This document shows positions 49,444 to 53,783 of a stretch of DNA of 64,000 nucleotides, in pieces. Location of the stretch: positions 62,001 through 126,000 of the forward strand of contig NZ_JAPJDL010000011.1 of the NCBI RefSeq assembly GCF_026242055.1. The letters run 5' to 3'. The stretch's first letter is position 1, and every line of letters begins with the position of its first letter. The notes beneath the pieces were generated by a model that saw only the letters and a list, made by a program, of their open reading frames with translations, did not search any database and had not been told where the DNA came from. The position numbers were made by a program, and so were the translations under genes. This stretch comes from Lentzea sp. NEAU-D7. GTDB lineage: Bacteria; Actinomycetota; Actinomycetes; Mycobacteriales; Pseudonocardiaceae.

Positions 49444-51036
49444 TCATCCGGAGCCTGTCCAGCGAGTTAGGCCGATCTGCGCACCTCGCCAGCGGTGCCG
49501 CAGCCACCGGTCGTGGCTCGCGAGCACGATCGCGCCCGGACCCGGCCCCAGCGCGTCCTCCAGCTCGTCGCACAGCGTCGGCGACAGGTGGTTGGTCGGC
49601 TCGTCGAGGAGCAGCAGGTGCGGTGGGTCCGCCACGAGCAGCGCCAGCGCGAGGCGCCGCCGCTGGCCCACCGACAACGCGCCGACCGGCTTGCCCAGGT
49701 CCCACTTGTGCAGCAGTCCCAACGACTCCAGCGGCACCTGCGCGATGCGTTCGGCACCGAGCGCGCGGCCATAGGTGGCTCGTGCGGTGAGCCGGGGGTT
49801 CGCGAACGACGTGTCCTGGTCGAGCAGTCCAGCGCGGACGCCGGCCTGCCGCCGCACGCCCCCGGACGGGAGGCGGCCGGCCAGCACGTGCAGCAACGTC
49901 GACTTGCCCGCGCCGTTCGGGCCGGTCACGAGCAGGCGGTCGCCGTCGCGCACGTCGAGGAGGTCGAGCGCGAGGCGGCCGGGCACCCGGACCTTCCGCA
50001 ACGACACCAGGTCCTCGGCCGGCAGCGCCACCGTGTCCGGCGCGAACCGCAGCGGGCGCGGGGGAGCGGGCACGGCGTGGCGTTCCAGGTCCTCCAGGCG
50101 CCGGGTGGCGTTGCGGACGCGGCGGGAGATCTGGCTCTGCACGCGGTTCGCCCGCACGCCGTAGCCCATCTTGTCGCTGTCGCGCATGGCCCGGTTCGGC
50201 GCGACGCGGCCCGCGATCAGGCCGAGCGAGTCGCGGACGGCGGCCAGCTCCTCCTGCTCCTCGGCGTAGCGGCGTTCCCAGCGGTCGCGGTCGGCGCGTT
50301 TCTGCCGCAGGTACTCGCTGTAGGTGCCGCCGAACCGCACCGGCCCGTCCACCGCCGGATCGAGGTCGATCAGGTCGGTGCACACCGCGTCGAGGAACGC
50401 CCTGTCGTGGCTCGCCAGCACGACTATGCCGGGCAGTGCTCGCAGCTGCTCCTCCAGGAACGCGGCCGCGGCGTCGTCCAGGTGGTTCGTGGGCTCGTCC
50501 AGCAGCAACGCCGCCGGCCGCCGGATCACCAGCGCGGCCAGGTCGAGACGGCGCCGCTGACCGCCGGACAACGACCCGAGCGCGCGGTCGTGAGCCACCT
50601 CGCCGAGCCCGAGTCCGTCGAGGACGACGGCGGCCCGGCGGTCCGCGTCCCAGGCCTCGTGCCGCTGCGCGAGCTCCAGCCGTTCCGAGTACTCCTCCAG
50701 GTACGCGGGATCGGCGACCAGCGCGCCCAGCCGTTCCAGCTCGGCCAGGTCCTCCCGTGCCTCGGCGAGCGCGTCGTCGAGGACCTGGGCGACGGTCGCC
50801 GAGTCCGGGAACGGCATCTCCTGGTGCAGGAAACCCAGGTCCGCCGGCCGGGTGACGGAGCCGCCGTCGGGCTGGTCGGCGCCCGCCAGCAGCCGCAGCA
50901 ACGTCGACTTGCCCGCGCCGTTCTCGCCGATCAGCCCGATGCGCCGGCCGGGCGCCGCGGTCAGCGACACCCCGTCGAGCACGCGCCGGCCACCGAACCC
51001 GCGCACCAGCTCGGTGGCGACCAGTGCCTCAGCCAC
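49444..51036 (-). CDS. ABC-F family ATPase, antibiotic-resistance type (second of pair)
   Basis: A 530-aa soluble ABC-F protein with two ATPase domains: GENGAGKST, LSGGQRRRLDLA and LLLDEPTNHLDD in the first; GPNGAGKST, LSVGQRRRLALA and LLLDEPTNHLS in the second. The intervening region (about 230-300) is the interdomain arm that reaches the ribosomal P/E site. There is no TM domain. The TNHLSPTLCDELEDAL string is common in actinomycete TlrC/OleB/VarM-type ribosome-protection proteins. GTG 51036 with GGAGGT overlaps the upstream ABC-F stop by 8 bp. Confidence 0.9.
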   Translation of the reverse strand: MAEALVATELVRGFGGRRVLDGVSLTAAPGRRIGLIGENGAGKSTLLRLLAGADQPDGGSVTRPADLGFLHQEMPFPDSATVAQVLDDALAEAREDLAELERLGALVADPAYLEEYSERLELAQRHEAWDADRRAAVVLDGLGLGEVAHDRALGSLSGGQRRRLDLAALVIRRPAALLLDEPTNHLDDAAAAFLEEQLRALPGIVVLASHDRAFLDAVCTDLIDLDPAVDGPVRFGGTYSEYLRQKRADRDRWERRYAEEQEELAAVRDSLGLIAGRVAPNRAMRDSDKMGYGVRANRVQSQISRRVRNATRRLEDLERHAVPAPPRPLRFAPDTVALPAEDLVSLRKVRVPGRLALDLLDVRDGDRLLVTGPNGAGKSTLLHVLAGRLPSGGVRRQAGVRAGLLDQDTSFANPRLTARATYGRALGAERIAQVPLESLGLLHKWDLGKPVGALSVGQRRRLALALLVADPPHLLLLDEPTNHLSPTLCDELEDALGPGPGAIVLASHDRWLRHRWRGAQIGLTRWTGSG

Positions 51037-52639
51037 CTGCGACCTCCAGCAGCCTGCCGCCCTCCAGGCGCAGCCGGCGGTCGATCCTCACCTCGCTCAG
51101 GAACCGTTCGTCGTGGCTGACGACGACGAACGCGCCCCGGTACGCGTTCAGCGCGCTCTCCAGCTGGCCGGCGCTGACCAGGTCGAGGTTGTTCGTCGGT
51201 TCGTCCAGCAACAGCAGCTGCGGCGCGGGTTCGGCGAACAGGACGCACGCCAGCGTGGCGCGCAGCCGCTCGCCGCCCGACAGCACCCCGACCGGCAGGT
51301 GCGCGCGGGCACCGCGGAACAGGAAGCGCGCCAGCAGGTTCATCCGCTCGGCAGGGGGCATCGCCGGGGCGAACGCGGCCAGGTTCTCCGCCACCGTGCG
51401 GGAGTCGTCGAGCAGGTCGAGCCGCTGGGACAGGTAGGCGACCCGGCCGTCGGCCCGCTTCACCTCACCGCTGTCCGGCGTCAGCGAACCGTGGACCACC
51501 CGCAGCAGCGTGGACTTGCCGGCGCCGTTCGGGGCGGCGAGCGCGATGCGTTCCGGTCCCCGGACGGCGAAGTCCAGGCCGGAGAACAGGTCCCGCACCC
51601 GGATGTCCGCGCCGAGGAACAGCGTGCGGCCCGCCGGCACCGCCGTCTGCGGCAGCTCCAGACTGATCCTCTGCTCGTCCTTCAACGCGCGTTCGGCCTG
51701 GTCGAGCTTCGAACGGGCCGCGCCGAGCCGGGCCGCGTGCGTGCCGTCCGCCTTGGCCGCCGACACCTCCGCGTTGCGCTTCATGTTGCCCGCGAAGATC
51801 TTCGGCAGTCCCGCGTTCGAGAGGTTGCGCTGTGCGGTGGACGCCCGGCGGGCGGCACGTTCGCGGGCCTGCTGCATCTCCCGCTTCTCGCGCTTGACCT
51901 CCTGCTCGGCGCTGCGGACGTTCTTCTCGGCCGCCTCGCGCTCGGCCGCCACCGCGTCCTCGTAGGACGAGAAGTTCCCGCCGTGGAAGCGGATCTCGCC
52001 GCCGTCGAGCTCGGCGATCCGGTCCATCCGGTCGAGCAGCGCCCGGTCGTGGCTCACCACGAGCAGGCACCCGCGCCAGTCGTCCAGCACCTCGTAGAGG
52101 CGGTGCCGGGCGTCCAGGTCGAGGTTGTTGGTCGGCTCGTCGAGCAGCAGCACGTCCGGCTGCTTCAGCAACTGGGCCGCGAGCCCGAGCGAGATGACCT
52201 GCCCGCCGCTCAGCGTGCCGAGCACCCGGTCGAGCGCGAGGTCGCCGAGGCCGAGCCGGTCGAGCTGGGCGCGCGTGCGTTCCTCCAGGTCCCAGTCGGT
52301 GCCGATGGTGGTGAAGTGCTCCTCGGCGACGTCACCGGACTCGACGGCCGCGATGGCGCGCAGCACGTCCGCGACCCCGAGCACCTCGGCCACGGTCAGC
52401 CCGGCGGTGAGCGGCAGGTCCTGCGGGAGGTAGCCGAGGACGCCTTCGACGGTCACGCTGCCCTCGGACGGCGTGAGCGCGCCCGCGACGAGCTTGAGCA
52501 GCGTCGACTTGCCGGCACCGTTCGGGGCGACGAGACCGGTGCGCCCGCCCGGCACCGAGACGGACAGGCCGTCGAACACGGGGGTGTCGTCCGGCCAGGA
52601 GAAGGACAGGGAGGACACGACGATGAATGCGTCGGACAT
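51029..52639 (-). CDS. ABC-F family ATPase, antibiotic-resistance type (first of pair)
   Basis: A 536-aa ABC-F protein with paired ATPase domains (APNGAGKSTLLKL, TLSGGQVISLGL, LLLDEPTNNLDLDA; then APNGAGKSTLLRV, LSGGERLRATLA, LLLDEPTNNLDLVS). The linker between them (about 225-325) is long, charged and coiled-coil-like (EREAAEKNVRSAEQEVKREK), a length seen in Lsa/Msr/Vga-like resistance factors. The start is MSDAFIVV with AGAGGT upstream. Upstream DNA carries short ORFs and a hairpin that may attenuate expression. Its 3' end overlaps the second ABC-F gene. Confidence 0.9.
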   Translation of the reverse strand: MSDAFIVVSSLSFSWPDDTPVFDGLSVSVPGGRTGLVAPNGAGKSTLLKLVAGALTPSEGSVTVEGVLGYLPQDLPLTAGLTVAEVLGVADVLRAIAAVESGDVAEEHFTTIGTDWDLEERTRAQLDRLGLGDLALDRVLGTLSGGQVISLGLAAQLLKQPDVLLLDEPTNNLDLDARHRLYEVLDDWRGCLLVVSHDRALLDRMDRIAELDGGEIRFHGGNFSSYEDAVAAEREAAEKNVRSAEQEVKREKREMQQARERAARRASTAQRNLSNAGLPKIFAGNMKRNAEVSAAKADGTHAARLGAARSKLDQAERALKDEQRISLELPQTAVPAGRTLFLGADIRVRDLFSGLDFAVRGPERIALAAPNGAGKSTLLRVVHGSLTPDSGEVKRADGRVAYLSQRLDLLDDSRTVAENLAAFAPAMPPAERMNLLARFLFRGARAHLPVGVLSGGERLRATLACVLFAEPAPQLLLLDEPTNNLDLVSAGQLESALNAYRGAFVVVSHDERFLSEVRIDRRLRLEGGRLLEVAGG

Positions 52640-52708
52640 GGGTGTGAGACCTCTGAGACGTACCGCGCGCGGAACGATCGCGCGTGTGGAAAAAGGGGAC
52701 GACTGAAC

Positions 52709-52729
52709 GGCCATCGGCGATCGATGGCC
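52709..52729 (-). promoter_or_regulatory. candidate attenuator hairpin upstream of the ABC-F pair
   Basis: GGCCATCG pairs perfectly with CGATGGCC around a 5-nt loop, immediately downstream of the stop of a 19-codon uORF. A run of five T (minus strand, 52694-52690) follows 14 nt later, and a second GC stem lies at about 52664-52685. The set resembles ribosome-mediated attenuation of resistance genes. Confidence 0.45.
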
Positions 52730-52731
52730 TG

Positions 52732-52791
52732 TCACATCCAGGGCTCACCCTGAGATGTCGTCTTCACCCACCAGCACGTCGAGCTCCTCAT
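52732..52791 (-). CDS. candidate leader peptide (19 aa), frame 1
   Basis: ATG 52789-52791 to TGA 52732-52734 encodes MRSSTCWWVKTTSQGEPWM, rich in Trp. It ends two bases before the attenuator hairpin, so a ribosome stalled on it would sit against that stem. The Shine-Dalgarno is weak (GGAAGTGAG at long distance). Confidence 0.35.
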   Translation of the reverse strand: MRSSTCWWVKTTSQGEPWM

Positions 52792-52816
52792 CGAGGGCGG
52801 TTGATCTCACTTCCAC
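52745..52816 (-). CDS. candidate leader peptide (23 aa), frame 2
   Basis: An alternative uORF from GTG 52816 to TGA 52745-52747 overlaps the first in another frame and encodes an acidic peptide (STALDEELDVLVGEDD core). It looks more like ordinary actinomycete coding sequence than the Trp-rich frame. Only one of the two is likely to be used. Confidence 0.35.
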   Translation of the reverse strand: MEVRSTALDEELDVLVGEDDISG

Positions 52817-52856
52817 AGTAGCAGCGTGGTGCAGGGCCCGCAGATAGGGTTTCGGC

Positions 52857-53783
52857 ATGACGGTTCTCGAGTTGCTGCGCGAGCGCAGGCGGCAGCAAAG
52901 CGTTCCAGGACAACGGAACGACGACGCGCGGCTCGTCCTGCTGGTCGAGGGCGGCAGCTCGCGCGGCGTCTACTCCAGCGGGATGACCGTCGCGATCGAA
53001 CGGCTCGGGCTGCTGCCGCTGTTCGACGCCGTCTACGGCAGCTCGGCGGGATCGCTGAACGCGGCCTGGCTGCTGTGCGGCCGGGCGGACAGGAGCAAGC
53101 ACGCCTGGTGGGACCCGGCCGTCATGCGCACCACCATCAACCCGAGGCGCGCGTTCACCCGGCGGCCTGTCGTGGACACCCACCACCTCGTCCACACCGT
53201 CTACACGGAGGTCCACCCGATGGGCTTCCAGGAGATCCTCGACAACCCCGTCGAGTTCCACCCGATGGCGACGGACGGTCTCACCGGCGAGGCGACCGAC
53301 CTGCACGGCCACGTCCGCGACACCCCGAGCCTGCAGACCGCGCTGCGGGCGTCGACCGCGATGCCGTTCCTCGCGGGCGACCCCGTGATGATCGACGGCC
53401 GCCCGTACGTCGACGCCGGGCTGAGCGAGACGATTCCCGTGAGGACGGCTCTCGCGCAGGGCGCCACGCACGTCGTCGCGCTGCGCACGCGGCGCGAGGA
53501 CGAGTTCCTGGGCGTGCCGCCGTCCCGCGGGGAACGCTTCGTGCTGTCGCGGTGGTTCGCCCGCCACGCGCCGGGCGTCGTGACGGCCTGGTTGCGGCGC
53601 GAGGACATCAGGGCGCTGGACGAGCAGCTCCTCGCGTCCCACCCCGCCTGCCTGCAGATCCGGCCGCCGCTCGGCAGCGCGACGATCGGCCGCACCGAAC
53701 GGCGCCCGCGCGTGATGCAGGCCGCCCTCGACGTCGGCGTGGAGGCGGCGATGAAGGACCTGGCGGGCTGTCTCGTGTCCTGA
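52857..53783 (+). CDS. patatin-like phospholipase
   Basis: A 308-aa patatin-fold acyl hydrolase with the oxyanion loop EGGSSRGVYSSG (about 31-42), nucleophile S63 in VYGSSAGSLNAAW and catalytic D186 in YVDAGLSETIPV, the Ser-Asp dyad of the family. No signal peptide. It probably hydrolyses phospholipid or acylglycerol ester bonds in the cytoplasm. The ATG lies near the presumed transcription start, with no clear Shine-Dalgarno. It is divergent from the ABC-F operon leader. Confidence 0.88.
   Translation: MTVLELLRERRRQQSVPGQRNDDARLVLLVEGGSSRGVYSSGMTVAIERLGLLPLFDAVYGSSAGSLNAAWLLCGRADRSKHAWWDPAVMRTTINPRRAFTRRPVVDTHHLVHTVYTEVHPMGFQEILDNPVEFHPMATDGLTGEATDLHGHVRDTPSLQTALRASTAMPFLAGDPVMIDGRPYVDAGLSETIPVRTALAQGATHVVALRTRREDEFLGVPPSRGERFVLSRWFARHAPGVVTAWLRREDIRALDEQLLASHPACLQIRPPLGSATIGRTERRPRVMQAALDVGVEAAMKDLAGCLVS

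Follow-up and report, generated by a model that had tools for sequence, protein, structure and literature searches.

What controls the two overlapping ABC-F genes that lie on the minus strand of a 64,000-nucleotide stretch from the actinomycete Lentzea sp. NEAU-D7 (Pseudonocardiaceae; contig NZ_JAPJDL010000011.1, positions 62,001 to 126,000; this whole stretch is hereafter the window), and does that control act on transcription or on translation? The genes, named ABC-F1 and ABC-F2 in the order in which they are read, are preceded by a leader with short upstream open reading frames (uORFs). For this locus we computed the uORF family, a promoter element, a hairpin at the uORF stop codon (P1), the identity of the genes, the distribution of the tandem and RNA complementarity within the window's own family. 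On balance, the locus appears to be a ribosome-mediated attenuator of the tiaA type that controls a two-gene ABC-F unit at translation, a reading that we hold with slightly better than even confidence.

The reference system is tiaA (SCO0636) of Streptomyces coelicolor, reported in mBio in 2025 (PMC12421871). According to the portion of that report used here, a 194-bp leader carries the uORF tiaAL, which encodes MVGDDDISG, and toeprinting and reporters show that ribosomes stall at its start codon in the presence of a lincosamide, streptogramin A or pleuromutilin.

The conserved leader peptide

The genes, frames and promoter element on which the argument depends are the following.

49444..51036, minus strand: ABC-F2, from GTG 51036 to the stop at 49444; 530 amino acids, a relative of the TlrC/CarA/OleB/SrmB ABC-F group
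51029..52639, minus strand: ABC-F1, from ATG 52639 to the stop at 51029; 536 amino acids, a TiaA-like ABC-F ribosomal protection protein
52745..52777, minus strand: conserved uORF, from GTG 52777 to TGA 52745; MLVGEDDISG (10 codons), homologous to the published tiaAL
52784..52789, minus strand: Shine-Dalgarno (SD) sequence of the conserved uORF, GAGGAG, read from the sequence and in agreement with relatives
52732..52791, minus strand: Trp-rich frame of 19 codons, MRSSTCWWVKTTSQGEPWM, without SD; regarded as a side effect of the conserved frame that it overlaps
52815..52823, minus strand: extended -10 element TGCTACTGT, recognised in the sequence; it suggests a transcription start near 52809

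Leaders of the tiaA type were recognised by an SD-preceded uORF ending in [ED]DDISG 5' of an ARE5 ABC-F gene, and the window carries exactly this arrangement (MLVGEDDISG, GAGGAG), in a single copy in its genome. A motif scan of named genomes returned at least 80 loci. Among the 80 listed, 75 have a homologue of ABC-F1 (67-95% identity) directly downstream, in L181, L205 and L200 that place is taken by an ABC-F2-type gene (62-66%), L145 is truncated and L189 seems to match by chance. Since these loci had been picked by the motif itself, conservation was counted on a motif-independent search of the family instead. A protein search that made no use of the leader matched 116 of 200 family genomes at E <=1e-100, including paralogues at 45-54% identity, and after 80 more regions were fetched it defined 93 family loci at >=58% identity to ABC-F1, a set that excludes G164 and G067 (both >60% identity). 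The uORF motif, in a relaxed form, was present in 71 of these 93 loci chosen by protein alone. In the 71, 141 of the 142 codons for the DD pair are GAC, and the Gly codon is GGG in 66, a near-invariance suggesting that the RNA is constrained along with the peptide. Related or short SD-preceded uORFs occur in 16 of the 22 loci that lack the motif, and L071 has one by eye; in L067, L084, L085, L091 and L097 such a uORF is absent or doubtful. When the search was widened to the phylum outside the family, seven TiaA-like loci (66-76%) were found, among which L124 and L126 carry the motif.

Variant uORFs were also seen. In L122 and L123, two more of these seven loci, which belong to another family of the same order, the usual uORF stop is lost and MVGELDISG runs on into VTRL or ATRL, and the TiaA-like genes of L063, L071, L107, L111 and L121 have much shorter uORFs (MLGDD, MLGDA, MGDH).

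The assignment of ABC-F1 itself follows from its relatives. Streptomyces tendae (L218) and Streptomyces olivaceus (L162) have the exact peptide MVGDDDISG before ABC-F proteins 73-74% identical to ABC-F1, and it is through these proteins, not through SCO0636 itself, that ABC-F1 counts as a TiaA orthologue. The top NCBIfam model, NF000355, describes the general ribosomal-protection ABC-F family and scored 365.1 bits, under its cut-off of 380, so that the term TiaA-like rests on orthology and not on the model. Paralogues at 52-54% identity (L129-L139) have three-codon TTG uORFs instead (LLV, LLF, LLI, LRI; 11/11), like the published are5scL1, which puts the window gene on the TiaA side. The upstream regions of these paralogues constitute a useful internal control. 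A text search of the literature for DDISG strings turned up 14 papers, among which GDDDISG stood in PMC12421871 only and GEDDISG in none.

The original prediction had placed drug sensing in the Trp-rich frame, which it described as ending two bases 5' of a perfect 8-bp hairpin. Frame and hairpin are both there, at that spacing, and the second uORF that it saw overlapping in another frame exists and is the conserved, SD-preceded MLVGEDDISG. A drug-stalled ribosome acting on ABC-F expression is well supported by homology to tiaA as a type of control, but the wrong uORF had been picked. As a sensor, whether of drug or of tryptophan shortage, the Trp-rich frame is very improbable and was rejected: it has no SD, and 5 of 14 Lentzea rows (L001, L013, L017, L144, L215) retain its ATG, or 4 of 12 once two duplicate genomes are left out. 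Furthermore, an internal stop interrupts it in L015 and its stop is missing in L161. These counts refer to Lentzea; across the wider set it is in the MLVGEDDISG frame that start, SD and stop are kept. With stalling at the start codon, as published, the Trp codons would be irrelevant.

Leaders with an assigned start numbered 147, from which non-redundant subsets of 63, 59, 49 and 40 were used (35/69 in an earlier round). The promoter element recurs with the uORF: within -80..-15 relative to the uORF start, 51 of 63 non-redundant leaders have TGNTANNNT, where shuffles lead one to expect 1.2, and the predicted leader has a median length of 178 nucleotides (nt) in 49 leaders. A transcription start downstream of 52709, which the original prediction had named as evidence that would count against it, is not what the extended -10 suggests, for the start probably lies near 52809. 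On the other side of this promoter lies a divergent gene for a patatin-like phospholipase (window 52857-53783), its start some 34 bases away from the -10 element.

Resistance genes are commonly under WhiB7/WblC control, which counts for a reading in which the leader is structured without switching in response to drugs, the genes being simply on or under a WhiB7-type promoter. We consider such a reading improbable here, since the uORF, the stop-codon hairpin and their spacing are kept across several genera and since the tiaA experiments, in the part of the paper used (PMC12421871), speak against it.

Two genes in tandem

The ABC-F1 stop and the ABC-F2 start overlap by 8 bp (GTGGCTGA, 51036-51029, minus strand); open reading frames and coordinates agree with the original prediction in this respect. 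Both proteins have the two ABC ATPase stretches (PF00005) of the class, with 150.3 bits over the ABC-F1 chain. The solved structures closest to ABC-F1 are chains of a lincosamide-streptogramin A resistance protein, ExpZ and PoxtA, and the one closest to ABC-F2 is a chain of EttA. The top NCBIfam model for ABC-F2, NF000171 (TlrC/CarA/OleB/SrmB), gave 431 bits, far under its cut-off of 800. Consequently, we do not file ABC-F2 as an ARE4 member; it could equally belong to one of the actinobacterial AAF groups, as far as these are described in the part of PMC6723617 used here.

The tandem recurs. An ABC-F2 gene follows ABC-F1 in 33 of the 152 loci with enough downstream sequence (two of the 33 being duplicate genomes), in several genera, and a start codon stands at the 8-bp overlap position in 14 of the 33 tandem rows, or 12 without duplicates. 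Tandems with the 8-bp overlap occur in Lentzea, Nonomuraea dietziae, Microbispora catharanthi and Actinoallomurus iriomotensis; in nine Streptomyces tandem rows the candidate ABC-F2 start lies 63-83 nt past the ABC-F1 stop. Overlap and recurrence in other genera make it plausible that the two genes share one transcript, as the original prediction proposed; the wider drug range that it also suggested is a conjecture. No description of an ABC-F tandem under one such leader was found in the search listings and the passages of papers that were consulted. Proteomics of Streptomyces lincolnensis show an AAF4 and an ARE5 protein both up with clindamycin, at loci that cannot be linked to the tandem from the part of the source used (PMC8546547).

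In two Micromonospora genomes (L181:3222-3380, L205:4593-4751) a tiaA-type leader lies directly 5' of an ABC-F2-type gene without ABC-F1. In Nonomuraea spiralis (L200:2300-4223) a 16-codon frame comes next after the leader and runs into the start of an ABC-F2-type gene, which looks like what would be left after ABC-F1 was lost but its overlap with the next gene retained.

Leader structure and the level of control

The features of the leader RNA are listed in order of coordinate, from the ABC-F1 ribosome site to the transcript 5' end.

52650..52653, minus strand: core of the ABC-F1 SD, GAGG, within GAGGTCTC, from the sequence
52666..52684, minus strand: P3, a GC-rich hairpin (CGCGCG-7nt-CGCGCG) 5' of the ABC-F1 SD, from sequence and fold
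52690..52694, minus strand: U5 tract after P0/P2, a possible terminator tail
52698..52703, minus strand: P0 3' arm, GTCGTC, followed by CCC and U5
52709..52729, minus strand: P2, a perfect 8-bp hairpin with a 5-nt loop, GGCCATCG-atcgc-CGATGGCC, from sequence and fold
52734..52758, minus strand: P1, a hairpin whose loop contains the uORF stop, ACATCTCAGGG-TGAG-CCCTGGATGT, from arm complementarity
52757..52762, minus strand: P0 5' arm, GACGAC, inside the uORF, from sequence, alignment and fold
52803..52809, minus strand: putative transcript 5' end, UGAGAUC; the minimum-energy fold pairs it with GGUCUCA (52651-52645) over the ABC-F1 SD

For the 173-nt leader the folding energy is -77.2 kcal/mol (z -3.61), a stability that none of 200 dinucleotide shuffles equalled. 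Complementarity between the uORF end and the sequence after its stop, which defines P1, reached z -5.6 in 63 leaders (0/5000 permutations; reversed control 0.2). The 8-bp hairpin that the original prediction took for the attenuator is real (P2, 52729-52709), but it is one part of the folded leader. Conservation was examined on a 91-row alignment, made up of the 97 leaders whose P0 3' arm was recognisable and correctly spaced, less identical rows; P2 arm residues G65, C67, C68, G82, G83 and C85 (first-row numbering) fall in columns >=90% conserved. The case for P0 comes from the frequency of GTCGTC downstream of the uORF (32 of 63 leaders against 8.1 expected) and from one cell of the pairing map described below; L035, in which both sides have changed to GTCGAC, is no more than a hand-picked example. 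The window had 0 Rfam matches at gathering score and one sub-threshold match (14.6 against 37). In the five loci with much shorter uORFs described above, the P1 sequence was not seen upstream; the last codons of these uORFs can pair with a downstream stretch, in cases that were picked by hand.

Which parts of the leader pair with each other was examined by scoring the duplex energy between windows of its 5' part and of its 3' part in 40 dissimilar leaders, against permuted partners. In this map, whose spread was 1.29, 5 of 260 cells lay at z <=-3 and none reached +3. The lowest cell (z -4.2) joins the uORF ribosome site to the ABC-F ribosome site, and of the remaining four, three are its neighbours and one is P0 (z -3.1). 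Broader windows over the two ribosome sites gave z -3.0 in 63 leaders (reversed control -1.6) and z -3.6 in the 49 leaders with an assigned -10 (reversed control -1.0); in the same 49, complementarity of the transcript 5' end stood at z -3.1 (reversed control -0.8). When the set was split to the window's family alone (22-35 leaders), the two ribosome sites gave z -3.1, and the 5' end (-36..-16 of the uORF start) with the ABC-F SD region gave z -5.98 in 35 leaders (0/10000; reversed -2.14) and z -3.67 in 22 (reversed -1.62), the reversed controls of these split tests ranging from 1.1 to -2.1. A ribosome modelled on the uORF start, with the SD at a fixed position, raised mean SD accessibility from 0.296 to 0.354 in 70 leaders.

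Several results weigh against this reading of the leader. Complementarity in the 19-29 leaders from other families is z -0.5 to -1.8, so that it was not replicated independently, and reversed controls themselves reach -1.4 to -2.1 in some family tests and, as given above, -1.6 in the 63-leader test. For P0, a permutation test on ten hand-chosen variant leaders was null (z 0.1), the family value of z -2.2 equals its reversed control (-2.2) and other families give -0.5 to -0.9. RNAalifold, applied to the 91-row alignment, returned nine pairs; in none of them had both partners changed, probably since the arms shift register from one clade to another. When the SD was taken by best match, accessibility in the stalling model went slightly down, from 0.354 to 0.340 in 59 leaders (26 fall, 13 rise; Wilcoxon 0.042). 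In the window itself the modelled ribosome lowers SD accessibility from 0.45 to 0.28. No such uORF was found in L125, L127 and L128, three of the seven TiaA-like loci outside the family. Finally, Lentzea leaders do have a U-rich tract 3' of P0. Note that the direction of the ribosome-masking model flips with the definition of the SD, and the model was set aside as evidence both ways.

The U-rich tract bears on the main rival, transcription attenuation, in which P0/P2 and U5 (52694-52690) would act together as a premature terminator, with stalling at the uORF start keeping it from forming, as in lmrC. A terminator-like match, GATGGCC...CCCTTTTTCC, was found once in the window against 0.1 in shuffles. 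Furthermore, the tiaA leader is predicted to form a terminator and an antiterminator (PMC12421871), and lmrC of S. lincolnensis, another ARE5 gene, is controlled at a mapped premature terminator (PMC8546547), both according to the portions of these sources used. However, the U-tract is not conserved: a T-run >=4 follows GTCGTC in 4 of 27 leaders, and any TTTT occurs in 9 of 59. In the tiaA work, moreover, promoter and transcriptional fusions were constitutive and the drug response appeared in the translational fusion only, although the authors allow for interference from the reporter's strong ribosome site (PMC12421871, same portion). Overall, a terminator is a possible but not a probable basis of control here. 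Because the transcript 5' end and the uORF ribosome site match the ABC-F1 ribosome site better than permuted partners do in the window's family, because tiaA responded only in the translational fusion and because the U-tract is not conserved, translational control is favoured; because that complementarity is seen in the family only, the accessibility results conflict and Lentzea leaders have a U-tract, it is favoured with modest confidence, and the terminator is kept as its main rival.

Under translational control, the locus might work as follows. The promoter, constitutive if it resembles that of tiaA, would produce a leader some 170 nt long. As long as no drug is present, ribosomes would run fast through the 10-codon uORF, and the ABC-F1 ribosome site, paired with the transcript 5' end and with the uORF ribosome site, would be translated little. 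A lincosamide, streptogramin A or pleuromutilin would stall the ribosome at the uORF start, where it would cover the 5' partner; the leader may then refold around P1 and P2 and free the ABC-F1 site. Ribosomes that end ABC-F1 would start ABC-F2 through the 8-bp overlap. Stalling and drug specificity in the window are carried over by analogy with tiaA.

These patterns permit a wider proposal, which we put forward tentatively: the tiaA leader may be a device for the mutual hiding of two ribosome sites that drives two coupled ABC-Fs of different groups in many actinobacteria, and it may have moved before the second gene in L181, L205 and L200. If so, lincosamides and pleuromutilins would induce a macrolide-type ABC-F behind a moved leader. 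That the tandem recurs suggests that a single drug sensor can serve two ribosome-protection proteins of different kinds, a point of interest for the bundling of intrinsic resistance in soil actinobacteria.

Comparison with known systems

ABC-F2 resembles the ARE4 group (TlrC/CarA/OleB/SrmB), its best curated model, and differs from it in that its score remains far below the group's cut-off. Comparisons of the leader draw on the portions of the cited papers used here. The translational attenuator of cplR likewise combines a short uORF with an anti-SD element acting on ABC-F translation; it is Clostridial, and the likeness is one of description and not of sequence (PMC10201436). The lmrC gene shares with our locus the ARE5 type, drugs of the same classes and a ribosome-mediated mode, and differs in its mapped terminator, where the relatives of the window lack a conserved U-tract (PMC8546547). 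Like the window, are5sc (SCO6720) has a short uORF before an ARE5 ABC-F, with a different peptide (MLV versus MLVGEDDISG; PMC12421871).

The closest system is tiaA. Peptides (MVGDDDISG and MLVGEDDISG), leader lengths (194 bp and a predicted length of about 170) and the ARE5-type ABC-F directly downstream correspond, whereas the window peptide is one codon longer and reads GEDD where tiaAL has GDDD, the first ABC-F gene is followed by a second with an 8-bp overlap, and the genus is Lentzea. The tiaA paper left the choice between transcription and translation open, and the comparative data now offer a specific, testable pairing. The leader belongs to a kind already published, and what is worth testing is the coupled second gene and the pairing of the two ribosome sites.

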